This document shows, piece after piece, positions 1 to 59,425 of a stretch of 64,000 bases of DNA (within the stretch, counting starts at the first letter, position 1; each line of letters starts with the position of its first letter). The DNA is from Uloborus plumipes. Taxonomy: Eukaryota; Arthropoda; Arachnida; Araneae; Uloboridae. The notes beneath the pieces are model-generated. The model made no database searches and was not told where the DNA came from. It saw only the letters and a list, made by a program, of their open reading frames with translations. The stretch is taken from NCBI GenBank assembly GCA_038373865.1, contig JAXGGA010004504.1, forward strand, positions 1 through 64,000. The letters are read 5' to 3'. A program made the position numbers and the translations under genes.

Positions 1-1522
1 CAGTGAAATTTTTTTAGCAGCTTCAAATGGTTTGATGTTAGTTGTGTGCCTAAAGTAGATTTGACACAAAATAAAACATGGCTCAATTCTCCCAACATTA
101 CCATTAAAAATCGTTCGGTCACAAGTTTTAAATTCGACTTCTCCTTTTCTGCTGAGTCAAATAAAAATTATGAAACGCATCACCTCAAAGGTTAACAAGG
201 TATAATAAATGTTAAACTAGTCCCCTTACTAATCAACGCCATCCAATTTTTAATTTTATGATGTTCTATGATTGCATTACTGAATCAAAAAGCATAAGTT
301 AAAATTTATAATGCTTTTTGGCATAAGTCACCGCATTTTGACTTTTATAATGAAGAATAACGATGTGATACTAAAAACTGATTCCTTATCATTTGTATAT
401 TATAAAAAATGTACAGTTAAAAAATGCGCTGTAAAACTACTTGGTTCTTTACAGGAATTTAATGTTTTTGACAAAACCTTTTTTATCGTCTTTCACCTAC
501 TTAAAAGAACAACATTTTGCTTCGAGATCATTTCAGAATCGATTTTATGACTATCTGCAGCAGATATGAGTCACTTTCCGATGCTATTCAGAAAAGAACA
601 ACACAGTTCTTGCACCTTATTTTGTTTTAGAAAAGAAATCATGTTATCTTGTCCCATCGAAAAGAAAAGAAAACTCACTGAAAAAAAATGTATGTTTCTT
701 GAGCGCACTTTATGTAATATTGAAGCTGTGCGAAACTACAAATATGTTTTGGCCTGGGATTATTTTATTTGTATTAATTTTTCTCTGTTGCTTGTAAGCA
801 TATTCCAAATATTTAGTGATTAAGAAGAAATAAACAATTGTATGCCGCAAAACAGGAAAGTCGTGCGTAACAATTTTACGAGTTTCTTGTTTTGAGTAAT
901 TGAGAAAATTTGATCAAGATCTTGTTTGCTAGCTCTTGGATAAGAGATAGTCTCACTTAGCTCTTTGAAAAATTAATAACTTTTGTCACATTTAAATGAG
1001 AAGAGCTCAAAGTATCATAGAAATATTTGAAAATAAGTAAACATATACGCATTGTTCTTCAATTTGTGTTTATACACTTTACCCCCTTTAAAAGAGAAAA
1101 AAACTTTAACACCAATTTCACCACATATTTTGACCTGTCTCTGATTAGTTAATATCTTTGAGAGATCGGGAATCTGGGGACAATATTTCTCTGTTTCTCT
1201 TACAAAAGGCAGGATCGTCATTTAGAGAAATTAGGGAGGGGGGGGGGCGTGTCAATTGTCCGCCTAACTTTGGAAAATCAATGTATTTACATGTAAGTGG
1301 GCATGGTTTTTGCTGTTTTTTGGTGTCATTTACATTGAGTACACACCCTTTACCCCGCCCTCTTGGAAAAGCTCGAAATGACGGGCCTGACAAAAGAATT
1401 AGAGCTAGAAGAAGAAATCAAATGTTTTTATTAGAATACAAGACCAGAAAGGTTTTTTTTCTGTTTCACTAATCTTAATGCAAGGGAAAAACCTATTTAA
1501 TGTACCACTAATGTGTATATTA
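1..1522. other. AT-rich sequence, no supported gene
   Basis: I see no gene here. Open frames at 311-550 and 566-823 have ordinary AT-rich composition and no recognisable motif. A small GC-richer patch at 1160-1400 with a G10 run is open on both strands but resembles no protein I know. Confidence 0.5.
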
Positions 1523-2321
1523 TCTATATACATAAAAGACTACTTTTGAAAACGTATGTCCGGGGTAATCTTCCAAACTACTGAACCGATTTTAACCATT
1601 TTTTCACCGTAGATAGCTACAGTAACAGGGAGCAGGATAAGCTATAATTTATTTCTAAAACTCTTAGTTTAATAAAGTTATTATGGAAAACAGTTGATTT
1701 TAGGTCATTTCCCCATTAAATCATTAAATTTTCAACCCATTGTTGCAAAAATTTGGTGCCATGCAGCAACAATATTGATTATAATCATATTGAAAATTTT
1801 GAACCAAGGCTTCTCTGGAGAAAGTATGGAATTTATTGCCTTCTAAGGATTTTTATATTTATCTGAGCCAACAATCGCTAACGAGTAAAATAAAAAAAAA
1901 TGATTTTGGCAATAGTTAAAGAATAGAAAGTGTTTATAGTCAAAAAAATTTCTAAATTAGGTACATAAGATGTTTTCACCTCACCAATGTTGTCACGAGG
2001 ATAGAAACTGATAATGGGACTTATTTAACGAGCAATATTTGGAAATGGTTAATTTCAGTGCGATTGATACTGTAAATATATATTTATTTTAATACACCAA
2101 TCTAATAACATTTCCTATTTACTCAAACATTATTTGTAGCTTGCTATTTTTTTTTAGCTTGCATTATTATTTTTTATAGTTTATCCATAACATAGCCATT
2201 GTTTACAGAAGTAGCCATTATGTTTATAGATATGAACTTTAGTGTTGGGAAATTTATGAATGAGTTTCACTAAACCACCCTACGCCCACAGAAATCCGGG
2301 CAGCGCCGGGTACCCGGCTAG
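1523..2321 (+). mobile_element. Non-autonomous Helitron, ends intact
   Basis: It starts TCTATATACATAAAAGAC directly after a host A and ends CTAG before a host T. A GC-rich inverted repeat (CCGGG...CCCGG) sits just inside the 3' end. TC start, CTRR end, 3' hairpin and A|T insertion are the defining Helitron features. The subterminal text, with 'TGTCCGGGG' and 'CTACTGAACCGATTTT', is typical of arthropod Helitrons. It codes for nothing recognisable. Confidence 0.8.
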
Positions 2322-3292
2322 TGATTTCATAAAGGGTAATACATATTAATTTCATGAAATTAGATTTAAAAAAAAAAAGAAAACAAAGCGTAACAGTATT
2401 CCAATTCAAAAAGTAGTACCTTCGGTTATATCTTGAGTATTAAAGATTTCTAGTGATTTTCGCAAATAGTATCATGCAAAAAAAGGAAAAAATCCAACTT
2501 CTTCTTTTGGTTAAGACCTTATTCAGCAATTTCTTGTAATGATATTTATCTCAGTTTCAATGAAGAGTGAAGGAGTTTAATTCTTGTTCAAGTAGGTGGA
2601 AAATTGGTGGATTAGATCGCTACAACTGAGAAGGTATTAACTGCTCATTGAAAAAGAACTTTCACTGGGCTTTTTTCCCTCTCCAAGATTGCACCCTCAA
2701 GGTAAGGGCGCAGCTGTAATTACAAGGCTTACTGGACAGAATAAAATACTTTTCGTACTTACTAACTTGCAAGTTTATCTAATTCCCTTTTTCTGTCGGT
2801 CTTGGTGTCAAATAAAATAGTTGGCTGAGTGCAACAACTGGGTAAATACAAATTTGATAGCATATATAATGTTTCGCTTTTTTTAAAAAATTTTGTTTGA
2901 AAAAAGACATAAATATAGTGAAACACGGTTAGACGTCTATCCTTTTGATTTATACGTAGTTTTCTTGAAGTAACAAAGCATTCCTATTTCTTTTAATGCA
3001 TAAGTGCATCGTTTAAAGTCTCTCATTTATACGTCATTTTACTGAATTTGACTAGGTCTTTAATTTGACTAGACTAGTCTTTAATTTGACTAGGATCAGC
3101 CAAGTTGGGCCCAGAGCCTGCTGCTGGTCGCCACATTTGTATTTGTATTTGTATTTGAAGTCACAAACTATTCCTATTTCTTTTAATGCATAACTGCAAG
3201 TCTCTTTTTCTTATTTTTTAAAAATATTTATGTGTATTTTTTCTTCAAGTCCAAATTATTCCTATTCATTTTACTGCATAATTTCGTTATTA

Positions 3293-3780
3293 CTCCAAAT
3301 TACGAAAGGAATTTCGGGTCTATTCAATGTTTTTCAAAAAATCAAATTTTGAAGGAGTTACGAAATTGAAATTTTTATACAGCCCCCTAGTCTTATCAAT
3401 CATATTTAGTAAAACATTCTTGACACAGTAACGTTTAAAACTTTAAAAAAATCACTCTTCCACGACAAATATTGACCGAGTTATGAAGTTTTGAAAAATC
3501 AAGATTTTGCATTATTTCATGACGTCATCGAGAGATCGCTTAAGGAACCGTATGCGAAATCCTTCAAAATCTTGATGTTTCAAAACGCCATAACTCGGTC
3601 AATTTTTGTCGTAGAAGAGTGTTTTTTTTTTAATTTTTAAACGATACAGTGTTAAGAATGTTTTACTAAATATGATTAATACGACTGGGGAGCTGTATAA
3701 AAATTTAAATTTCGTAACTCTTTCAAAATTTGATTTTTTTTAAAACATTTCGTAGCCCAAATTCTTTTCGTAATTTGGAG
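3293..3780. repeat. Foldback palindrome, two ~220-bp arms
   Basis: The left arm (3293-3512) is the reverse complement of the right arm (3553-3780) with scattered mismatches. Matching landmarks include CTCCAAATTACGAAA at 3293 with its complement ending at 3780, TGACCGAGTTATG with CATAACTCGGTCA, and AAATCAAGATTTTG with CAAAATCTTGAT. The loop is about 40 bp and holds TGACGTCA. It is probably a foldback or MITE-type element; no target duplication was recognised. A possible outer boundary is GTGGACACCCTGTA near 3850. Confidence 0.75.
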
Positions 3781-4151
3781 ATTTTTTTCTAAATAAACTA
3801 TATGTTTATCTCTAACGGTTTAAAAATTAGCTATTGGGCCACGATAGTAGTGGACACCCTGTATACGTGATCAAAAAATAGTGATTTTAAAAAGTAGTGA
3901 ACGAAGTTTTTTGCCTATGAAGTCCCACACCGGTTTGTGATTTCTCAAACAACAGAATTTCGCGCATTGTCCTTTAAAATCACTACTTTTTAATGAAATA
4001 TATGAGCGCCACGTGCGGGACAAGAGGGCGGTGTTTTCATGGCATGACCCTATTGCTGTGCAATCAGAACGTCAGACAATTGTAAGATATGCAATGAGTT
4101 ACCGCCCGTAAGCCAGGGCTGAGGCAGAACTGTAGCAAATGCACCCACAGA

Positions 4152-4224
4152 TCGATCATAGCATCCGAAGACTGCAGTTTCGCCCTTATTATGGGCTCCT
4201 CAGTTAGGAATAGCCAATGATCGA
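4152..4224 (-). ncRNA. Type I hammerhead ribozyme motif (- strand)
   Basis: It has the same architecture as the + strand copy. The inner 5' strand of stem I reads TCCTAA here, but the strand after GTC reads TTCGGA, leaving one mismatch. Core CTGAGGA, stem II GCCC/GGGC, GAAA and the palindromic stem III ACTGCAGT are all intact. The cleavage position is between 4170 and 4169. The outer stem I pairing TCGATCAT/ATGATCGA is conserved. Confidence 0.72.
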
Positions 4225-4798
4225 GCCGGAGGCAAAAATCCTCTTATTGTAGCTAAGATAGCCAACAAACTGGTAGATAAAGTGAATTTATCTTACCAGC
4301 GAGCGTCCGCAAACTATGGTGCGGCTCAACTCGAAATTTGAAGGCTAAAGCTGGGTAATGTGCAATGAGTTACCGCCCGTAAGCCAGGATGAGGCAGAAC
4401 TGTAGCAAATGCACCCACAGATCGATCATAGCATCCTAAGACTGCAGTTTCGCCCTTAAGGGCGAAACTGCAGTCTTAGGATGCAACAGAACTTAGTCTT
4501 AGGATGCTATGATCGATCTGTGGGTGCATTTGCTACCGTTCTGCCTCAGCCCTGGCTTACGGGCAAGGGCGAAACTGCAGTCTTAGGATGCTATGATCGA
4601 TCTGTGGGTGCATTTGCTACAGTTCTGCCTCAGCCCTGGCTTACGGGCGGTAACTCATTGCACATTACCCAGCTTTAGCCTTCAAATTTCGAGTTGAGCC
4701 GCATCATAGTTTGCGGACGCTCGCTGGTAAGATAAATTCACTTTATCTACCACTTTGTTGGCTATCTTAGCTACAATAAGAGGATTTTTGCCTCCGGC

Positions 4799-4871
4799 TC
4801 GATCATTGGCTATTCCTATCTGAGGAGCCCATAATAAGGGCGAAACTGCAGTCTTAGGATGCTATGATCGA
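4799..4871 (+). ncRNA. Type I hammerhead ribozyme motif (+ strand)
   Basis: The core CTGAGGA fits CUGANGA. Stem II is GCCC(ATAATAA)GGGC, followed by GAAA. Stem III is the self-complementary ACTGCAGT, too short to be stable alone but able to pair between two molecules. The cleavage triplet GTC lies at 4851-4853. Stem I pairs TCCTA with TAGGA next to the core (one U-U mismatch). Beyond an internal bulge it pairs TCGATCAT (4799-4806) with ATGATCGA (4864-4871). This is the type I layout with an internal loop in stem I. Confidence 0.75.
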
Positions 4872-4900
4872 TCTGTGGGTGCATTTGCTACAATTGTAAG

Positions 4901-5390
4901 CTATATATTTTTAACTGATTGCCAGCACATACATTAAACCTTTTAGAGATGAAATTACATTAACAACTGCAGCTATGCCATTTCCCTGCGGCACAATTAT
5001 AGTATGACCACTGATGAGATGAAAAGGCTGACATCCGGTTTAGCGGCGGAAAGGAACGCATCTATTAGTTCTCATCAGTGCCAGATCTTGCATTTGTGTA
5101 TTAGCTTCTAAATAAGGCGGAGTGACATTGAAATGAGCGAAGCACGTGCATGCAATGTTCACCGCCTCCAAACCCCTTTATTCAGATAAACTCTACTTAA
5201 CTGGATGCTTGCCGATACCATAGCAACCGAGGGTAGACAGCATATAGTGCTCCTCTCGTAAGTTGAGCAATGACCTTGAGAGTGTGAGCCATTGTTTGAG
5301 GCGTTCAGTAAGAAAGGAACCGTGCTATTGGAGCGGGTTTGAGCTGGAATACTATATGAAACTAACCTAACTTAATTCAGTGCGAAACTA
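4901..5390. other. GC-richer block with a perfect hairpin, function unknown
   Basis: It directly follows the hammerhead element and is more GC-rich than the surroundings. An 11-bp stem CACTGATGAGA (from 5009) pairs with its complement ending near 5081. I found no open frame with recognisable homology. It may be the host or older repeat into which the hammerhead element inserted, because 4005-4075 has a similar composition. Confidence 0.4.
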
Positions 5391-7166
5391 TCATTCCTCT
5401 TATCCCCAAAAAAAGTCAACATTGTCAAGGTCATAGCCTCACTTTCTAATTAGCACTATACTAGAGCTTTTACTTTAGTTTTATAACAAAAAAGAGAGTT
5501 AAAAAAACTGGAAAAAATAATTGTTGTATTTTCTCAAGATCGCACCGCTCATGACCGCATACAGGCGCAAAGGCCATATTCATTGTAATAATTACGATTT
5601 GAACTCCCTCTTGACCAAAATCTCTTGATAATTTTTCATGCTCAAAGGTCTGTGCCTTTTCAACAACAATATTTCTCTCAAATTTATTTTCATAAAGGAA
5701 ATTTAAGGGGTCACAGTACCTCAAAAGTGACCAAAAGACCAAAACTTTTTTTATTGGTTATTTCAAAAGTAAAAGTTATTTAAAACACTCAGAAAAAATA
5801 CCATTGCTCTAGCTAAATTATTTAAAAAGTTATAAGTGGTTTTAGGGTATGCATGCTATGTGTTTTAATGGAAAAGCAAAACTTCAAAGTGCTTTTTCTC
5901 GATGATCGGATTTTAGTGTTTCTATGTTACTGGAAATGCTAAGGATTTTTTTCTATTAAGGATACGACTTTAAAGCAATATTTCTTACACTCAAGATAAT
6001 GTAATTAACAAAGCAGTACATTGAATAAGCATTTCATAAATTACTAAAATTTTTAGAGCTTGTTAAACCTCGAAAAACAAAGTTTTCTGAGAATTTTTTA
6101 CATAAAAGGTCACAAAATATTTTAAATCAATACATAAAAAAATGAATGCACAGATTTGTAGGGGTAATTCTTGGGATCATTTAGCAAAAGGAAATTTTGA
6201 AATTAGTGCAAAAAGAAAAAAAGCCTTAGGGTTTTTTAAAAATTGCAATTTTCTTAAATTTTTCAAAAATTTTAATGTTTGAAAATAATTTATTAATTGT
6301 TAAATAAGTGTGGAAACAGATATTTCAAAGAATTATATTTTTCACGTCAATTTAACAAAATTGTTTGAAAGGTACTGTAACCCCTGAATTCCCACAAGAC
6401 ACCAAATATGGCACCAAACAGAGAAATGCAGTATTACTTGAGCATAATCTTTCCCTTTTCTGGAAACACAACCGGAAATTGTTTTCTAATAAATACTTTT
6501 TAAATGTCTTCTAGCTAAAATCTTTCTTCAACTCTATGCTACGAATACCCCTCCATAATCTAGATACTCTCTGCGCGTATATAATATTCCCTTGAAAAAT
6601 CTTCACACAAGAAGTAACATGTTTGTACTGCTCTTCAGAAAAGTCCGGGCTCAGTAATGTGCATCTTTCAGAAGGGAAGAAAAAGATTCTATCTTGATGG
6701 CTACAAGCGCTCGAAAATGTTCCTCTGGGGAGGAGTTAAGAACAATTTGAAACGTTGCCAAAAGTTTGCCTTTAAACGCATCGAAAAAGATCATAGACGG
6801 AAAAGAATGCGGGAAGCATCATTCAAAATCGATCTATATTGCAGCATTATCAATAATGAAAGTTTTATGAGTTAATGTTAAATTAATGGGAAAAGTATTA
6901 TCAATGTACGGTTTGGATTTAAATTATGTATAAGGGTATTCTAAAAGACTCATTTATTTATCATATACATACATAATAAAAAATTAATTAAAACCTTTTT
7001 TTAACATTATTTTAAATTTTAATCCTAAAGTACATATTTAAAATTCTACTCAAACACAATTAAACAAAGCAACTAATAAATAAATGAATGAATAAAATAA
7101 AATACACGTACCCCACCAATCAAAAATTGCATTTTATTTCCTTATTTTTCTTCATTTATGCATTAA
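5391..7166. other. AT-rich spacer, nothing recognised
   Basis: Open frames at 5470-5742 (-) and 6657-6875 (+) show no motif I can name. No terminal repeats were recognised. Confidence 0.5.
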
Positions 7167-7872
7167 TCTATATATGTAAAGATGACAGGCTCTGTTTGTT
7201 TGTTTGTAGGTATGTTTGTAACCGATGACTAGAAGCCCCCACAGCACCTACAGACCTGAAACTTGGCACAAAATTCGAACGTATCCCCGTAATCTGCACC
7301 TTGAACGCCGAATTCTAAATTTCGAATTAGTTCTTTTCAAATTAATTAATTAGTCTCATTTTTGGTGTACCCAAGAAAATTGAAGGGGGAAAACTGTATC
7401 CTACCCCTTAACATTATACATCGTTGGAAAGAGTTTTTTTTTTTTCTGAAATAAAACATTATCACGTTTCTCTCCGTTAATTAGAACAGGAGATATTAAT
7501 TACTCAAATTTAGTCAATTTTCAAGGCTTAACTCTATACGAAAACCTGAAACACTAGGTCCATTTTCCAGACAAACTGCTCTTTTGTCCCTGAAGTTACA
7601 TAGTGGTTTAAATTTGCGTTTAGAGTTAAGCCTTGAAAATTGACTAAATTTAAATAATTAATATCTTATGTTACTTACTTAGTGTCTTTTTGATTTATTT
7701 GGCGAATTATTTTAAACTTTGACAGGACTTATATAGTGGAATTTAAAAGGTTATGGGGCACATTCGATTTAAATAATATAATTTTACTTCAGAGGGTCAG
7801 AGTGAATTTTACTTTATTTAGTTGACTTCCTTTACATTAACTGCACGGGCATCGTCGTGCGGGTACTGCTAG
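7167..7872 (+). mobile_element. Non-autonomous Helitron, ends intact
   Basis: It starts TCTATATATGTAAAGATG after a host A and ends GGGTACTGCTAG before a host T. The hairpin GCACG...CGTGC lies just upstream of the 3' end. An internal inverted pair (AATTTAGTCAATTTTCAAGG near 7508, complement near 7632) is also present. A second, decayed copy lies at about 32.26-32.90 kb. Confidence 0.82.
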
Positions 7873-9073
7873 TAAATAAATAAACGAGGAAAAATAATCA
7901 CGACTCATAATTCAATATTAGGAAAACTTGTTTAAGTAAACTAAAGCATTTTCCTTAGCAATGAAAACTTTAAACCCAACTATCTCAAAACATGATTTTT
8001 TGAGATGGGCTACTTTTGCAGTGCAAATAAGGACAACAACAATATCCATGATTTTAGAATTTTTGACACGCTTCAAGTGATAACTTTTTTTTAAATGTAT
8101 TTATTATTTTTAAGAGATAGGCATACTTTTGGAATGAAAAGCTAAAATATGTAAAAACATCATACGTCGAACTCAGTCAGGAACATAATAGATTTGACCT
8201 TTATGTTTATTTTAAAAATTCATCCAAAAGAAGCAATTATAGGCAGTAAATTTCAAGAAATAAAATATTAGTAAAACAACGCAACGAAATATGTAAGTTG
8301 TTTACGCCACGTAAACGTAATGGCGCAAAAATAGAGAGCCATTTATATTTTTAATGAAATTATTGGGATGAAATTGTTCCTTGTTTCGATTGTGATTAAA
8401 TGTGGCGTTCGCTATTGTTTTTTTATTATCATTTTATACAGATGTATGCACAACTAATTGTTCACAATGTTTTCGGTACATCCGATTTGTATTGCTACTT
8501 GGAGAACCATTTACGTCTTCTCTTTGGGAACGCAATTTTTCCTTTTGTCCCCTCGCAAAAAGCGCACTGGTGGGCCACATCAGACGAGATGACAAAAAAA
8601 AAAAAAAAATGCCGATAAACTAATTTAAATGCCAAATTTCACCAATATCATCGTAGCACTTAATATATTTTCAATCGACTGTTCAAATTGGGTACGTGGG
8701 ATTCAAACACCCTACATTTGCAAATTCTAGCTTATTTTTTTGTTTTGAGCTTTTACAGGTTTTATTTCAATGAATTTCAAGCCGGCATGATTCGTGAAAC
8801 CACAGTTGCTTCAACAGTTTTCGTCGATCATGCTGGATTTATCATCGACTAAGCATTTATAAGAGCAATTAAGGAAGAATAAAATACCCATCCTGTTTCT
8901 TTTGTTTAATCAGCTGAAACATTTTTTTTTTTTTGAAGAAAAAAGGAGCAACTCATGCTGCATTCATATATAATACCATCAGATGTAAGATATGCAACGT
9001 ATAGTAACGTAATACGATAAGTTTGCTGCCATTTGATTAAAAGGAAGGAGCAATTGACTTGCGAAGTAGACAA
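7873..9073. other. Region upstream of the lipase gene, no feature identified
   Basis: AT-rich DNA containing the expected promoter of the lipase gene. I could not pick out a convincing TATA box or initiator. The open frames at 8400-8623 overlap one another in two frames and have no recognisable motif. Confidence 0.4.
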
Positions 9074-9137
9074 ATGGCTAAATTGTATTTATTGATTGCG
9101 TTTATTATTCTCTACTTGCGGATTCGTTCGTCTAAAG
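9074..9137 (+). CDS. Lipase exon 1: start codon and signal peptide
   Basis: The ATG at 9074 opens MAKLYLLIAFIILYLRIRSSK, a short basic start followed by a hydrophobic core typical of a secretory signal peptide. The exon ends in phase 1 at a consensus donor (AAAG|GTAAGT). The G left over joins GT of exon 2 to make glycine. I chose this ATG because it is the only one that gives a signal peptide in the frame that splices cleanly to exon 2. Transcription must start upstream, but I saw no convincing core promoter. Confidence 0.7.
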
Positions 9138-12100
9138 GTAAGTTAATCGCAATCTACGTGAAGGATCTTTTTCACGCAAAGCTGTTTAAATACATATAAC
9201 ATACTATCGCCAATAGGCCTAAAATTAGTGTTCATAAATTGTTCCGAAATTTTCGAAAGAATGTTTATGTTGAGCAAGTAAGTATTTATACTACTAGCAA
9301 TAACAATTAAATTTTAGTTTGAAAAACTAAAAAATGCGCTTTTAGAGTTATTCAAACTATAAAGCTTTAAATCATGCGGTATTATTAGTTTACATGCACC
9401 TTATAATACATCAACATGTCTTGCAACTGACATTCAGATCGTCTGCAAGTTATTTTTAGCTTTCTCCTGCTTTGAATAAAATTAACTGAACTGAAGTGAA
9501 AAGAAGAACGCGATAAAAATAATAACAAATTGATGGAACGATTAGACACGATTAATTTAAGATGGAACATTCTGATCTGTTTTTTTTTGTTGCAGTTTTG
9601 AGATGTAAATAGCTAATATGTAAATAGTTTATTTTAAATATAATATTTGATGAAAAATTATTTCTCGTTTTTGAATACTCTTCACACGATTGCAAGCGCC
9701 CAACACGAAGCGGAAAATAGGTAAGATTTTACCTTCACAAAATTATTTTGAAAGATCCGCTAATACAACATGTAATATAGTCTAGCCCTCATTATTAATA
9801 ATAGCATTAAATAACATCAACATGTTATATTATAGTTTAGCCTTTAGTATTAACAATAGTATTAAATATATTATTTATATATTTGCAAAGAACGTGAATT
9901 TTATCTTTTATTCAGAGTCACATACATACTGGCAAACATACTCACATGTGAAACTAATAAAAGCGTATTATTATAGATTTATATGCTTTATTAAAGCGTG
10001 AAATGATACTTTAAACTGTCTGATCCGTTAAATTTACTTTAAAATAGAGATTAGATATGAAGGAATTGTTTTCATTGCCAAAGAAAGTGGATCTAGTGTT
10101 TTTATTATATCATTTTTATACACTAACTTATTGTCATATGTGAATCATAAAATATTTTAAACCTGTAATATTTGCTTCAAATACAGCAAATGAGGCTGCA
10201 ATTGAGCTATTTAAAAGTTTATTGATTTCAGTATCACTTTTTTATTTCATTATAGGGCCCATCACCAAAATAAATTACATCATAGCACTATATTGATATT
10301 AGGTTAGTCCAATTAAACAACTAAGTTTCATTGACGCTCAGGATATAAAAGGATATAGTCAGGGATCCCTGATAGAGATTTTTCTGTTTATTACTATCAA
10401 GCTAATTTTTCGTGAGGAGCTTCATTCTAATAAGACGCCCAACTTTTCCTCTTGCAACAATTCTCGATTGTGGTAGCTAACAGGGGTAGCAGGGATCAAA
10501 TATGTCGATTCTATAAGTCTCAAAAACTAATCACTAACTGTGACTTTTTTAATTAAATCTGAAGATAATTATTAATATTGTTGAAAAAAATATTTGTCCT
10601 ACAAGGTGTATGGTTTGATCAAAGAGTCCCCCTCCTCCCAACATGTTTTGATTACGAGGTCATCAAAAGTAATTACTAACAACCCAAGTTTTTTTCTACT
10701 GCTTACTTAATATGTATATAATTTAACAGTCACATTGTCCTACAAATTGTGTGGTACGTTATCTCGGTCCTACGATCAGAAATTGTTAGAACCACGAGAC
10801 CATTTTTTTCATTACTAACTGTAGGACAAAAATATTACATTATAGGTTAGTGCATTCTCTATCCAGATAAACCATTGTCCTACAAGAAAACAGGTAGGTA
10901 TCGCGAGTCCGACACGAATTGTAAATTTCGCTTTCTCTTTGGAATAAGTGAAAGCAGCTGTTTAAGTTTTACTAATTTTATTTTCCAGTTAAATTATTTG
11001 TGTATTGTCTTTGCATTCATAAAAAACAATTAATCTTCATCAGATTCTTCAGATAAATCATCATCTTCTTCACTAATCTCACTTTCATCTTCATCTTCTT
11101 CATTTTCGTCATTAGTGATATCTAACATTTAAAAATAAAGAAATTGCCCATTAATTAATAAACGAATAAAAATAAAAATACTATTAATAGGGGACCTTGT
11201 AAGTCAGAAGATAGTTCTTCAAAGGATGGACTTTTGTGGACCATCAAACAAATATTATTCGTATTTGCCGTCAGTTATCGTCCATCCATAGTTTTCCAGC
11301 AACTTTTTTGTGGGGCACCGCATGTGTGCATTGCACCATACGTTACAGATAAATACAGTTCGCTTAGTTTGTTGCAGTAGTTCTTGCTTTGTAGGCGGCA
11401 AACTCGAATGATCATATCCTACGATTTAATTTAAAAATTTTTCTTCTCTTTAATTTTTCGCTTTATAGCCCTTTTCAAACAATTGGTATCTACCTTTGTT
11501 GATGTCATTTTTCGTTTTTAATGAATATACTCTACATACGTTTCTTAAATGCTTCGAACTAACTCCTTCGATGTTGTTAATGCTGTATGTGCACTTCGCT
11601 ATGTACAACATCTTGATATTTGTGTTGATGCTTTCGAGCAGATAAAGTTTTGCAATGAAGCCAAATTTCTTTACTAAATTTCTTGACATATTTTCTTTTC
11701 CGTCGAAATGTAGGATTTTGCAAAACAAATTGCACAAAAAGCACTCCATTATTATTTTGGAGCATTAAAAAAAATCTTGACATTTGCTGTTAGAAGACAA
11801 ACACGCGGTCGAATGAAACTTTTTTTGCACAGTTATGGTCGACATTTACGGAGAATATATAATATGCTCTGGGCATGCGTACCGGCAAGGCTCAGCTATA
11901 ATGCCAAATTGTACACAGTAAATTCATTTTTACTTGTATTAATTTAAAATGTGTATTCAAATGGAGTAGTACCACCATAACGTACCACGAAATTTGAAGG
12001 ACAATGTGACTGTTAAATCAAATAAATATTAACTAAGCAAAAATTTAAAAATCAGATAATTTGTAATTATTCTTGATGATCTCGTAATCAATACATGCTG

Positions 12101-15100
12101 GGAAGAAAGGACTCTTTGATCAAACCATACATTTTGTAGGAAGAATATTTTTTCTACTAATGATAATAATTTCCTTAATATTTAATAAAAAATCAAGAGT
12201 AAGTATTAAATTTTTGAGAACCATTAAATCGACATATTTTATCCCTGCTACCCCTGTTAGCTAGCACAATCCAAAATTTCGTTTATGAAATTGTCGGGTG
12301 TCTCATTGAAACGGCGCAATTTCAGAAGATTCAGCTTGGTGCTGATTAGTTTTTCATCAGGGTACTACATTTTTAGAACGTAGGACCGGAATAACGTACC
12401 ATGCAATTTGTAGGACAATGTGACTTTCAAATTATACACATATTAACTAAGCAATAGGAAAAAACTCATCCGGTTAGTAATCACTTTGATGACCTCGTAA
12501 TCGATACATGTTGGGAACAGGGGGACTCTTTGATCAAACCATACACCTTGTAGGACAAATATTTTTTAAAACTATGTTAATAATTATTTTACGATTTAAT
12601 TAAAATTGCAACAGTTAGCGATAAGTTTTTGAGACCCATAAAATCGACACATTTGATCCCTGCTACCCCTGTTAGCTACCACAATAGAGAATTGTTGTAA
12701 GAGGAAAAGTTGGGCGTCTCATTAAAACGAAGCTATTCAAGAAGTTTCAGCTTGATAGTAATTATTTTTTCATCAGGCATTTGTACTACATCTTTAGATC
12801 GTAGGACCGGGATAACGTACCACACAATTCGTAGGACAATGTAACTGTTAAATTATATACATATTAAGTAAGCAGTAGAAAAAAACTCATGTTGTTAGTA
12901 ATTACTTTTGATGACCTCGTAATCGATACATGTTGGGAGGAGGGGGACTCTTTGATCAAACCATACACCTTGTAGGACAAGTATTTTTTTCAACAATGTT
13001 AATAATTATCTTCAGATTTAATTAAAAAAGTCACAGTTAGTGATAAGTTTTTGAGACTCATAGAATCGACACATTTGATCCCTGCTACCCCTGTTAGCTA
13101 CCACAATCGAGAATTGTTGTAAGAGGAAAAGTTGGGCGTCTCATTAAAATGAAGCTCCTCACGAAAAATTAGCTTGATAGTAATAAACAGAAAAATCTCT
13201 ATCAGGGATCCCTGACTAATATAGGTACAGGTTTGTATTAATTTTGAATGAGAACGATTAAAAATACAAAAGTTATGTTATAGTATTTACTTCAATGTTT
13301 TAACTCAGAAAATGTACGTGTCATAATGCATTTTAAGAATAACTTGAAAATTTTCTGTTGCTTTCGTATAAGAAATTCAATTGCTTTAAAAATGAATTTA
13401 TAAAAAGTAAAATAACTTGTTGTTTCCCTTGACCTGTGTTTTTCAGGTTGGTTTATATCAGTATATAAAACTTTGCGAATCAACTTTTCTTTTGATTGAA
13501 ATGTATTTTTACAATTTATATCACAACATATGCTAATTTATTTTCAAATAGAAAAAAAATTATCGTACTTTTTTTTTGTTGATATAAGACCGATTGCAAG
13601 GTTTTGGTAAAGGCATTCAAGGGTACTGTGTAATTTCTGTACTTTTAAAGTGTTTTCCAATAAAGCAAGATATTTTCACAAAGGCTGATATCTCTGTTTT
13701 TATGTTATTAGTTTGAAGATAATTTAAAATTATACATAGGTAACTTTTTTCAATGTCGCTTCTTCGTAACATCAGTCACATTTTGTTATTCACTTTAACT
13801 TCAGGGTCATTCCATAGAAATGTCAACCTCAACAGAAGAAAAAAAAATCTGGTATGGGTCCCACACTACTTCCTTTTACGTGTAAATTTCTTTGTAGATG
13901 CCTTAGTGTTAAATTTATGCTATGAGTGAGCAAGATATCAATTCGAACATTTACACCCCTAGTTTGCTTCGAAACAATGCAAAACAAATGTTTTACAATG
14001 ATTCATTTACTAAATATCGCCGATTTTAACATCATTCAGTGAATTTTTCGCAAAATATCGCCAATTGCGCCAAATTGAACCCAAATTCAAAAAAAAAAAA
14101 ATTCGCCAAATTTGTCGCCAACTTGGCGATATGTCGCCAAGTTGGCTCCAAACACTTGGCGACCAAAAGCTTGGCGACATAACGGAAAGTGGTCGCGCCA
14201 ATGCATATCTTTCCCTCTGCATTGAAATTAACACTGATTTTCCCCAAAAAAGGGGTAAAACACCCCCTTGAAAACATTCAAATGCAACCACAAGGGGAGG
14301 TGCACAACTAGACCATCCTCAGAGCCTACATACCAAGCTAGAAGCTTCTACGGCATATAGTTTTTGAGTTATGCGACCCACATACGCACACACGTACATA
14401 CAGACGTCACACGAAAACTCGTCGTAATTAACTCGGGGGTGGTTGAAAAATTTTTTTCGGCTGCTTATATGTTGGTAGGTACATATGCACGTGCTGACAG
14501 GTCAAAAAAACTAAGGAATTTTCATTCGGGGGTGAGCAAAATCAAAATTTAGATTCAAATTTGAGTGATTTTTTTTTTCGCGATCACAATACTTCCTTTA
14601 CTACGTAAAAGGAAGTAAAAATAACGAAGTGAAAAAAATATAAAAAAATAAGTAAATAAATAAATAAATAAAAATCATACAGCATAAGAAGTTTAAAAAA
14701 AATTGAAAAAGTGTTTTAATTATCACTAAGATTAGCTAATCTTATCAGTAAGATAAATAGTTTGTAGTGTGTTTACTGCTTGTTTTTCGATGGTTACGTT
14801 AGTCACGTTACGTTAGTCACACTCCATCTTGAGTAAAAGTGACATTTAAGACTGAAAAAAATAGGGATTTAATAAATATGTTTTATGTTTTTAAAAGTCA
14901 ACTTTACACATTTTTCAAATACATCATTCAATTTTTAACACTTGCTTAACTTTGAGAAATTTTTGCCTCACAATATGAGCATTCATTTTCAGGGCTGCAA
15001 AAATGTTACGTTAGTCACACTGCCCTTTTGGTTGAAAAAATATCTGTTGTCCGTAATTTTGTAAAAATTCTTAGCAGACATGATACATAGAGACCATGCA

Positions 15101-33524: not shown

Positions 33525-33960
33525 CCCCCCCTAATAACTTTTGAATGAACATTCCGATTTGGACAAACTTTTTTTTGTTGGAAAGATCTTTTCAAGGATA
33601 CTTCATTACCGTATCTACGTTTTTGATTTGAACAATTTTTCGTTCAACATTGAACCGCTCAAACAAGCTCTCACCCCTAATAACTTTTGAGTGAACAGTC
33701 ATATTTAAACAAACTTTTTTTTGTTCGAAAGATATCGGCAAGGATACTTCATTACCGTATCTAAATTTTCAATTTGAACGTTTTTTCGTTCAACATTGAA
33801 CCGTTCAAGCAACCTTTCTCCACCTAATAATTTTTAAGTGAACCGTCTGAATTGAATAAACTTTTTTTGTTCGAAAGATCTCGGAGAGACTCGTTCCCAT
33901 ATTTCACTTTTCAATTTGAACCATTTTTCGTTCAATGATGAACCGTTCAGAAAATTTTTT
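33525..33960. repeat. Tandem repeat, three ~147-bp units
   Basis: CTAATAACTTTTGA-type unit starts at 33531, 33677 and 33824. Each unit contains GAACAAACTTTTTTT, GAAAGAT and TTCGTTCAA(C/T)(A/G)TTGAACCG. Confidence 0.75.
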
Positions 33961-56189: not shown

Positions 56190-56565
56190 TAATGAGAATA
56201 AATTCAATATTTAAAAAAAAAATTATATACAAAACCCGCAGTGGTAATTACCGTTGAAAAAAACAAACTAATACTTTTAACATTGGGCAAATATTTTTTT
56301 TTTACAGTTATTATAACATTTTGATATTAATGAGGATAAATTCCATTTTTTTCACACAATAATTATATACAAAAACAGCAGCGGTAATTAACGAAGAAGC
56401 AAACAAAGCAATAATTTTTAAATGGTGCAAATAATTTTTACAATAATTATAACATTTGGATATTAATGAGAGTAAATTCAACTTTTTCAGAAAATAATTA
56501 TATACAAAAACCGCAGTGGTACTTATCGTAAAAACAAACAAAGCAATAATTTTTACGACATCTTG
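56190..56565. repeat. Tandem triplication of the transposase 3' end
   Basis: Three ~145-bp units share AATTATATACAAAA(C)CCGCAGTGGTA-like and TTATAACATTT(T/G)GATATTAATGAG blocks. The unit nearest the gene overlaps the last codons of the transposase; the other two are downstream. Confidence 0.7.
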
Positions 56566-58414
56566 CGCAACAAATGAAAGCAGATTTTTTACAACAGTAA
56601 GGAATTTGCAATTCATCTGTAGAGAAACAGACCTGATTGACGTTCATAAAAATATTTCGAGAAACTGATAATTTTGAGGCAAACCAAGCGTATCGAATCA
56701 TGTCTTGGAATATTGGGGACGATAATTGATGATGAATAATTGAATGAATTTTTATACAATCTTCCCGGGAATTTATTTCACGATTCTGCTCCAACAACTC
56801 GCTACAATTTTGCAAGCGCTTTATGAAATTTTTAACTTGTCGGTAGAAATAAACATCACAAGGTTGCACCAAGGGAGTGCATTTTGGAGGGATTACTTTT
56901 ACAAAGCAAGTTGGCATATTTTCTCCATCTTGGAAAATTTCATCATATATCTGTGGATTTGTCTGACCACCCCAAGAGTCAACGAGGAGTAAAAATTTAT
57001 TGTCCCCGACGTATGGTTTTAAACATTTCTGGAGAAAATTCTTGTATAAAACTGTAGTTAATTTTCCAGACTTTGATGATGTTATTGTAACATTCGTATA
57101 TGAAGTGGCGTAGCCATCTACTAATTGTTGAATTCGAGGTCCAAATTGGCCCCCCGACTCTTGCAGACACACGAAGACATGCGGGAGCAATTTTCCAGAT
57201 AATGCTATAGAATATTGGGCAGTATATGAATGGGTCACCTTATTTAAATCCGACTTTTTGACGAAAACTGTTTTACTCCCTTTTTGTGTAAGTGTCCTGT
57301 TGAGAACAGATTGATATTGGCATCCTGAAAAAAAAAGTGTTTTCAGTGTTGAAAAATCTTACACATGCCTACATGCACGCTTGCACAACACGGAAATACA
57401 AACACACACCTGCTCGAAAACACACGACACGCGCGCGCGAACACACACACACACACACACGCTCACGGAATTTTTATATAATTCATTTATGAATTTAGGA
57501 AACTTTTTATGTAATTCATTTCGAATTTGAACATTTTGCATCGGTAAAAACATTTGGTATGCAGAAAATTTGTATTTACCTGTTTGGTCAGTATTTAAAA
57601 CAAAATCTTCATGGTATTGAGGTATCAATCGGCACGTCTGCCGACGAAAGGTTTCCGCAGAGGCCAAGATTTCCTCCATTGATTCCGCCTCTTTTTTCGA
57701 AACTAGTTTTGTGATTTTTCGTTGAGAAATTCTGTGTTTCTGTTTAAATGCCGTGACCCATCGATCAGATGCCTTGAAATCGAAATCGGTGAATTGTGCA
57801 GCAGCAGCCAAAGCCCATTCTTGTAAATTTCTTGTTGTTACTTGCTGATATTGCTCTCTTGCTTCTACAAAACGGTTGTACGTCCACGAATCTATCGCTT
57901 CAAATTTGTCAAATATTGTTCCACCACTTTTAATATCATTCTCCCATTGTGAAAGATATTCTTTTTTCTTCAAGCGGCTGCATCCTTTCTTTTGCAATGT
58001 CACCAAAGACCATGTGGGATGTGCTTTAGCAATGTTCACGACTTTCACTTTGTAGGCGATGGAAATGGTTTCACTTTTATTTTTTTCCGGTTTTGGCTCG
58101 AATTCGTCCGAAGAAGAATCATTTTGGGACACATCGAACTGCAAGTCTTGAAATTTCTCTTGAACGTGAATCAATTCCTCTTCAACAACGATTTTTTTCT
58201 CGCTCAAGAGTTCCAATGTACTATTATAAAGTTCTTCCGCCAATATCATAGAATCGTGCGATATTTCGTCCGAAGGTGTTGAAGCAATTAAACCATTTTC
58301 CTTCAACATTTCTTGGTAATAATCGACTGCACCTTTCAATCGCGCCTTTGATTTTTTACTGTACATAGATTCTTCTTCCAATCCAGAAGAGCCAGCAACA
58401 TCTTCAGTCGACAT
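56498..58414 (-). pseudogene. Pogo-type DDD transposase, two exons, one frameshift
   Basis: Exon 1 spans 58414-57580 and exon 2 57325-56498; the intron has donor ACAG|GTAAAT and acceptor TTTTTTTTCAG. Exon 1 holds an acidic N-terminus, a helix-turn-helix region with RWVTAFKQKHRISQRKITKL (CENP-B-type second HTH) and ends in NTDQTG, the first catalytic Asp. Exon 2 holds LLLVDSWGGQ (second Asp), PPKCTPLVQPCDVYFYRQVK (third Asp) and a Cys-rich tail with CCKKSAFICCARCRKNYC. The product is about 550 aa, which would cut and paste the element in the nucleus. One extra base in a T run near 57300 breaks the frame between exon 2's first residues and NRTLTQKGSK. Otherwise the frame is intact, so the copy is young. 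Confidence 0.8.
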
Positions 58415-58547
58415 CTTTTAACATTAAATGAGTTTCAAGAAACCGTAGCGGTCTGTTCATGATAAGTTCGAAAAATACAGAGGCTGTTCGAACATTTTGC
58501 AGACGATTTTGATTAGCAGAAATAAAAAATCGTTTGCCCTACAAGAA

Positions 58548-58859: not shown

Positions 58860-59340
58860 TCAAATTGGAGTCTTAAAAGTAGAATATAAATAGAAAAATG
58901 AGCTCGAATGGTGTTCCGTGAATTAAAAAAACTTTGCGTTCTGTGACTCAAATATTCTTTTTTTAATTATGTTAGGAGGAGAAACATTACCAATAACTTG
59001 GAGGGAAAAAAGAAAAAAAAAAGAAAGAAAAAAAAAAGCACGGAAAAACATTACCAATAACTTGGAGGGAAAAAAGAAAAAAAAAAAAAGAAAGAAAGAA
59101 AAAAAAAAGAAGTCTTAAAAGTAGAATATAAATAGAAAAATGAGCTCGAATGGTGTTCCGTGAACAAAAAGAACGTTGCGTTCTGTGACTCAAATATTCA
59201 TTTTTTAATTATGTTAGGAAGAGAAACATTACCAATAACTTGGAGGGAAAAAGAAAAAAAAAAGAAAGAAAGAAAAAAAAAAAGCACGGAAAAACATTGC
59301 CAATAACTTGGAGGAAAAAAAGAAAAAAAAAAGAAAAGAA
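58860..59340. repeat. Internal duplications in the right TIR
   Basis: The block AGTAGAATATAAATAGAAAA ... GTTCTGTGACTCAAATATTC occurs twice (58877 and 59111). The block ACATTACCAATAACTTGGAG followed by an A/G-rich tract occurs four times (58984, 59047, 59226, 59294). Confidence 0.8.
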
Positions 59341-59425
59341 AAAAAAAAACCCGCAGGGGGACTCGAACCCTTGACCACTGGATCAGAAGGCCGGCACGCT
59401 TCCGACTGAGCCACGACGGCGTGCT
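59335..59425 (-). promoter_or_regulatory. tRNA-like segment with pol III A/B boxes in right TIR
   Basis: Inverted copy of the left one: A box at 59402-59413, B box at 59359-59369, followed on the minus strand by T-rich DNA. The T stem is slightly better paired here (GGG/CCC). Both copies are directed inward. Confidence 0.65.

Follow-up and report, generated by a model that had tools for sequence, protein, structure and literature searches.

Organisation of the block

The window, i.e. the whole stretch of 64,000 nt of Uloborus plumipes DNA that was analysed, contains a block of two inverted arms enclosed by a direct duplication of the target site, ACAATTGTAAG, which is exact over 11 bp on both sides (4076-4086 and 4890-4900), as the preliminary description had claimed. 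Allowing one mismatch, the left copy extends to 4090 and the duplication to 15 bp (14/15 identical), a reading that would also remove the mismatch beside the outer end of arm A; the first 3 nt of the right copy (ACA) may be either element or target. Equal 11-mers at the spacing of the duplication were found at 1/63,100 window positions, this one being the duplication itself, and at 1/20,000 random position pairs.

When read in the ribozyme sense, both arms begin at a common point, the centre of the block at 4457/4458, and run outward. Arm A (4087-4457, minus strand) consists of 18 nt, a 270-nt unit between predicted cleavage sites (4170-4439, minus strand) and 79 nt; if 4087-4090 are counted as duplication, its bounds become 4091-4457 and its length 367 nt. 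Arm B (4458-4889, plus strand, 432 nt) reads as 18 nt, 9 nt of unit, a filler of about 9 nt (AACAGAACT, 4485-4493) lying between the central palindrome and a partial unit (4495-4564, plus strand) that ends at +66 after the cleavage site, and then a second AAGGGC start, which gives an 84-nt direct repeat. This second start opens a run of 18 nt, after which come one 271-nt unit, delimited by predicted cleavage sites (4583-4853, plus strand), and 36 nt. The AAGGGC start, located in loop II of the hammerhead, is present at the centre of the block and again at the 84-nt junction. The spacing of the GTC sites is 270 nt in arm A and 107 and 271 nt in arm B, in agreement with the repeat of about 270-271 nt claimed earlier for junctions in both orientations.

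Between the two full units there are 4 substitutions and 1 indel; partial units adjoin them, and two complete units never occur in one arm. The inverted arms are 98% complementary over 261 bp, and their head-to-head junction is a perfect palindrome of 54 bp (4431-4484) with zero spacer. On both sides the outer ends correspond to RNA 3' ends, which lie at +79 in arm A and at +36 in arm B relative to the cleavage site and are thus separated by 43 nt of the unit; the two arms accordingly stop at different places in it, their outer termini agreeing at 9/40 positions only. The GC fraction is 0.46 in the unit versus 0.33 in the window. The block lacks ORFs of at least 120 aa, and a comparison with the window revealed no second copy elsewhere, the matches outside the block measuring only 14 and 19 nt (E 0.55).

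A six-frame Pfam scan of 1-14999 gave no Penelope-like element (PLE) protein domain, the lone match listed being Cytochrom_B_N_2 (E 0.0093), below its own cut-off. Likewise, the 7 ORFs of the window that reach 120 aa, through which alone 15000-64000 was covered, gave no match to reverse transcriptase or GIY-YIG. The reverse transcriptase ORF, usually with GIY-YIG, that defines an autonomous PLE was thus not found within the scanned range. A 129-aa ORF of the window had no homologue at E 0.001. At 56498-58417 (minus strand), two adjacent ORFs together make up a split transposase, with matches to DDE_1 and HTH_Tnp_Tc5; among the best 120 of 208 matches of the DDE_1 ORF, the named relatives belong to insects and spiders, and the closest match has 87% identity. 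These relatives point to a probable arthropod host, though only weakly, as transposons may pass horizontally between species. Tandem repeats occur at 11977-13184 (422 bp, 2.9 copies), 33528-33949 (146 bp, 2.9 copies) and 58869-59349 (242 bp, 2 copies), and a short inverted repeat, CACTGATGAGA...TCTCATCAGTG, at 5009-5080. Rfam, searched up to E 1, returned no match on 4900-5500.

Hammerhead motifs

The preliminary description had claimed a 73-nt type I hammerhead on each strand, and such motifs were found at 4799-4871 (plus strand, arm B) and 4152-4224 (minus strand, arm A). The claimed core, GCCC/GGGC stem II, palindromic stem III, GTC site and two-part stem I could all be read in both copies, in the order CTGAGGA, stem II GCCC/GGGC closing the 7-nt loop ATAATAA, GAA, ACTGCAGT and GTC. 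Both copies accordingly present the conserved core of a type I hammerhead (CUGANGA...GAA...GUC) together with stems I, II and III. Stem III is formed by 2 pairs (A-U and C-G) enclosing the palindromic tetraloop UGCA. In each copy, an internal loop separates the outer stem I, of 8 bp (TCGATCAT/ATGATCGA), from the inner one, which is 6 nt long and in the Rfam alignments carries one mismatch per copy, at different places: in arm B the mismatch is the first stem I pair (TCCTAT/TTAGGA), and in arm A it lies in TCCTAA/TTCGGA. Being of common descent, the two copies do not count as independent occurrences.

In a search of 1000 bases under an E-value threshold, RF00163 (Hammerhead_1) was the top match on both strands, with 30.9 bits over 4814-4859 on the plus strand (E 1.7e-5) and 26.3 bits over 4164-4209 on the minus strand (E 6.2e-4). 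Both scores fall short of the gathering score of this model, 34 bits, and at the gathering threshold Rfam gave 0 matches within the 64-kb window. A loose descriptor of the core plus stem II was found at 2 places in 64 kb compared with a mean of 0.18 in 100 first-order Markov simulations, and as these simulations reach a maximum of 2, the descriptor is by itself weak evidence.

Relatives of the unit were not found by exact-pattern scans of viral and genome contig collections, and a blastn search for distant matches of 4560-4900 against phages and plasmids returned none. The single genome-contig match to the pattern, on a Bacteroidales MAG contig, has no hammerhead core and was judged to be due to chance. 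Two IMG/VR contigs carry a lone type I hammerhead-like motif each (L002:12659-12688, minus strand; L003:3754-3783, plus strand), located shortly upstream of an ATG and having no Rfam hammerhead match at the gathering threshold. Both share the CTGANGAGCCC..GGGCGAAACTGCAG core with the block; their stem III is looped, no repeat covers the motif in the stretch examined, and they are not relatives of the unit.

Folding and predicted activity

Both units are predicted to fold more stably than their shuffled versions, with z -3.94 for the 271-nt unit (0/200 shuffles as good) and z -4.16 for the 270-nt unit (1/200), as expected of the highly self-paired RNA of a retrozyme. The minimum-energy structure of the unit contains stem II and the inner stem I, but in it CUGAG of the core is paired with CUGCAG. 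The full catalytic dimer is absent from both two-strand co-folds of the hammerhead segments, and dimeric action rests therefore on the comparison with the axolotl hammerhead HHR_Amex1, for which passages of PMC7229834 describe a single-pair stem III with a palindromic tetraloop, poor cleavage alone and good cleavage as a dimer. By this analogy, a hammerhead with a very weak palindromic stem III probably works best as a dimer, and dimeric action of the present hammerhead is plausible.

The upstream cleavage site in each arm is without its CTGANGA half, so that each arm holds one complete hammerhead. Judged by its sequence, this locus appears unlikely to release a 270/271-nt monomer, because each arm has this single complete hammerhead with a mismatch in stem I, stem III is weak and the core CUGAG is paired. 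A transcript running through the block is predicted to form a long hairpin of -684 kcal/mol, compared with a mean of -250 for 20 shuffles. Such a hairpin, if the block is transcribed through, could supply small-RNA silencing against its own family.

Probable identity and origin of the block

The hammerheads on both strands are those of one element inserted as two head-to-head arms within one duplication. Because a single duplication encloses both arms, these most simply entered as one event. The block had previously been called a rearranged multimer, a description that is better replaced by that of a two-arm insertion. The accompanying proposal of a retrozyme-like, retroposed ribozyme RNA of about 270 nt fits the scores, units, folds and duplication described above when these are set beside the portrait of metazoan non-LTR retrozymes given in parts of PMC7229834: RNAs of 170-400 nt, type I hammerheads, low GC, strong pairing and, when present, target site duplications (TSDs) of more than 4 bp, a size exceeded by the present 11 bp. 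In favour of a retrozyme are the hammerhead on each strand, the similar units, their compact fold, the one duplication and the unequal termini; against it stand Rfam scores below gathering, the core CUGAG paired in the fold and the lack of a second copy within the window. The GC of 0.46 sits at the edge of the range of metazoan retrozymes, which is given as below 45% in a legend and below 50% in the text of PMC7229834. Considering both sides, the block rather probably represents a single inserted non-autonomous metazoan non-LTR retrozyme, brought in by a Penelope-like enzyme acting in trans. A viroid-like RNA with ribozymes in both polarities was rejected, because the hammerheads are one sequence in inverted copies and not two sites within one unit.

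The structure of the insertion matches that of PLEs, whose pseudo-LTRs also carry type I hammerheads and insert head-to-head. Instead of a retrozyme, the block might be an array of pseudo-LTRs, solo or with deletions, from an autonomous PLE of the host. According to passages of PMC3846280, such pseudo-LTRs measure about 180-220 bp and unrelated sequences have been captured between solo pseudo-LTRs with TSDs. This origin is nevertheless unlikely, as no PLE domain was found in the six frames of 1-14999, the unit is strongly folded, and the hammerheads of PLEs are described in part of PMC7761336 as minimal, usually without non-conserved helix III nucleotides or loop-loop contacts, whereas the block has an extra CUGCAG in stem III and a long, two-part stem I. 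Ordinary twin priming gives unrelated breakpoints. It would account for an insertion of the same retrozyme by a LINE, inverted truncated L1 copies with TSDs being its mark according to passages of PMC2837659, but in the block both arms start at one nucleotide, neither outer end bears poly(A), and the 3' ends both fall within the unit at a distance of 43 nt from each other, which resembles the tail of PLEs. Mobilisation of the retrozyme by a LINE is for these reasons improbable.

Arms of 261 bp that are 98% complementary, together with a flanking duplication, would also suit a DNA transposon that is bounded by long terminal inverted repeats and duplicates 11 bp of its target. Such transposons are of Mutator or foldback type. 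The outer termini of the block, however, are not inverted copies of each other (9/40 agree), and neither hammerhead cores nor a 270/271-nt period have a place in such a transposon, which was rejected as an exceedingly remote explanation. The perfect 54-bp palindrome without spacer could likewise arise from a fold-back chimera during assembly or amplification; here the 4 substitutions and 1 indel between the units, the differing lengths and ends of the arms and the direct, not inverted, duplication in the flanks led to the rejection of an artefact, which is very improbable.

Proposed mode of insertion

From the observed anatomy of the block we infer both the enzyme and the steps of the retrozyme insertion. 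The block displays the insertion signature of PLEs, namely a head-to-head inverted repeat, a palindromic junction, a short TSD and a tail on one arm. The head-to-head arrangement had been taken as unusual; this does not hold for PLEs, in which it is the most frequently observed inverted form according to passages of PMC3846280. In the insertions described in further passages of that paper, direct pseudo-LTRs are accompanied by a neighbouring inverted one, palindromes mark the inverted junction, TSDs measure 8-10 bp but are lacking in part of the copies, and one inverted pseudo-LTR may bear a tail of 31 bp. The occurrence of such a form on a retrozyme unit makes PLE machinery, acting in trans, the favoured mobiliser of the block, a single locus that cannot settle the enzyme.

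In the proposed course of events, the two 3' ends at a staggered cut, separated by 11-15 nt, would each have served as primer for cDNA synthesis with retrozyme RNA as template, the start points being +79 for arm A and +36 for arm B, counted from the cleavage site. The two cDNAs would have halted at one nucleotide in loop II (AAGGGC), and their ends would have been joined by end joining or by snap-back copying, yielding the head-to-head palindrome. A Penelope-like reverse transcriptase/endonuclease probably acted in trans on the retrozyme RNA in these steps. By analogy with the family, the hammerheads would cut tandem transcripts into unit-length RNAs, which a host RNA ligase may close.

Either two or three cDNA ends are located at AAGGGC, those of arm A and of the 84-nt junction and, unless it is a snap-back copy, the start of arm B at the centre. 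These shared ends point to a fixed 5' end of the template or to a strong stop. Moreover, both arms read past AAGGGC once and stop there the second time, so that a linear template longer than one unit would fit better than a circle, while the current retrozyme model has a closed circle as template. That PLE enzymes move metazoan retrozymes in trans, using both strands of a staggered cut and a linear template of more than one unit with its 5' end fixed in loop II rather than a closed circle, is on this basis a possible but still doubtful generalisation.

Several published observations bear on these steps. In a part of PMC11167929, a purified PLE protein is described as cutting and extending both target strands and as starting internally at two adjacent sites, which accounts for a tail of 30-40 bp. 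Mutation of the hammerhead in the Anolis PLE left insertion in vitro unchanged and unprocessed RNA is suggested by the authors as the main substrate, both in line with the linear-template reading (passages of PMC11167929). For head-to-head PLE junctions, the authors of PMC3846280 prefer self-priming on an antisense template, and the portion of their text concerned with cross-mobilisation between PLE types reports none.

As mobiliser of metazoan retrozymes, LINEs or PLEs are named in passages of PMC7229834, where PLEs appear as a strong candidate on the grounds that they share type I hammerheads and tandem copies with retrozymes and co-occur with them. That such retrozyme elements exist is known; what is of note at this locus is a mode of insertion that hints at the reverse transcriptase moving them. 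In a limited literature search, no head-to-head arrangement was found described for a retrozyme, the retrozyme papers among the matches listed dealing with plants and not containing the term 'head-to-head'. PLE-like insertion marks (head-to-head arms, palindrome, tail and TSD) offer a sequence-level test for any retrozyme-bearing genome.

Comparison with known elements

Like the metazoan non-LTR retrozymes, as portrayed in parts of PMC7229834, the block has a unit within 170-400 nt, a type I hammerhead, a TSD of more than 4 bp and a compact RNA fold, and its stem III, very short and capped by a palindromic tetraloop, resembles that of the axolotl HHR_Amex1. Such retrozymes are further characterised by direct tandems of at least two units, by the lack of an ORF, LTR, PBS and PPT, and by multiple genomic copies and circular RNA; in the block, units of 270/271 nt have partial units beside them, and ORFs reaching 120 aa are lacking. 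It is unlike them, as far as these parts describe them, in its head-to-head arms, its palindromic junction and its one complete unit per arm. A short repeat with a hammerhead is also found in the newt hammerhead satellites (passages of PMC7229834) and in pDo500 of Dolichopoda (passages of PMC2837043), but these are described as satellite DNA repeats whereas the block is a single two-arm insertion.

With PLE insertions, as described in parts of PMC3846280 for Adineta vaga and of PMC11167929 for Poseidon of Anolis, the block shares the head-to-head arrangement and palindromic junction, a short TSD, a 3' extension on one arm and a hammerhead in the repeat. It differs from these PLEs in having a TSD of 11-15 instead of 8-10 bp, an extension of 43 instead of 30-40 nt, a less minimal hammerhead and no reverse transcriptase or GIY-YIG ORF nearby (six frames of 1-14999 and the 7 ORFs).
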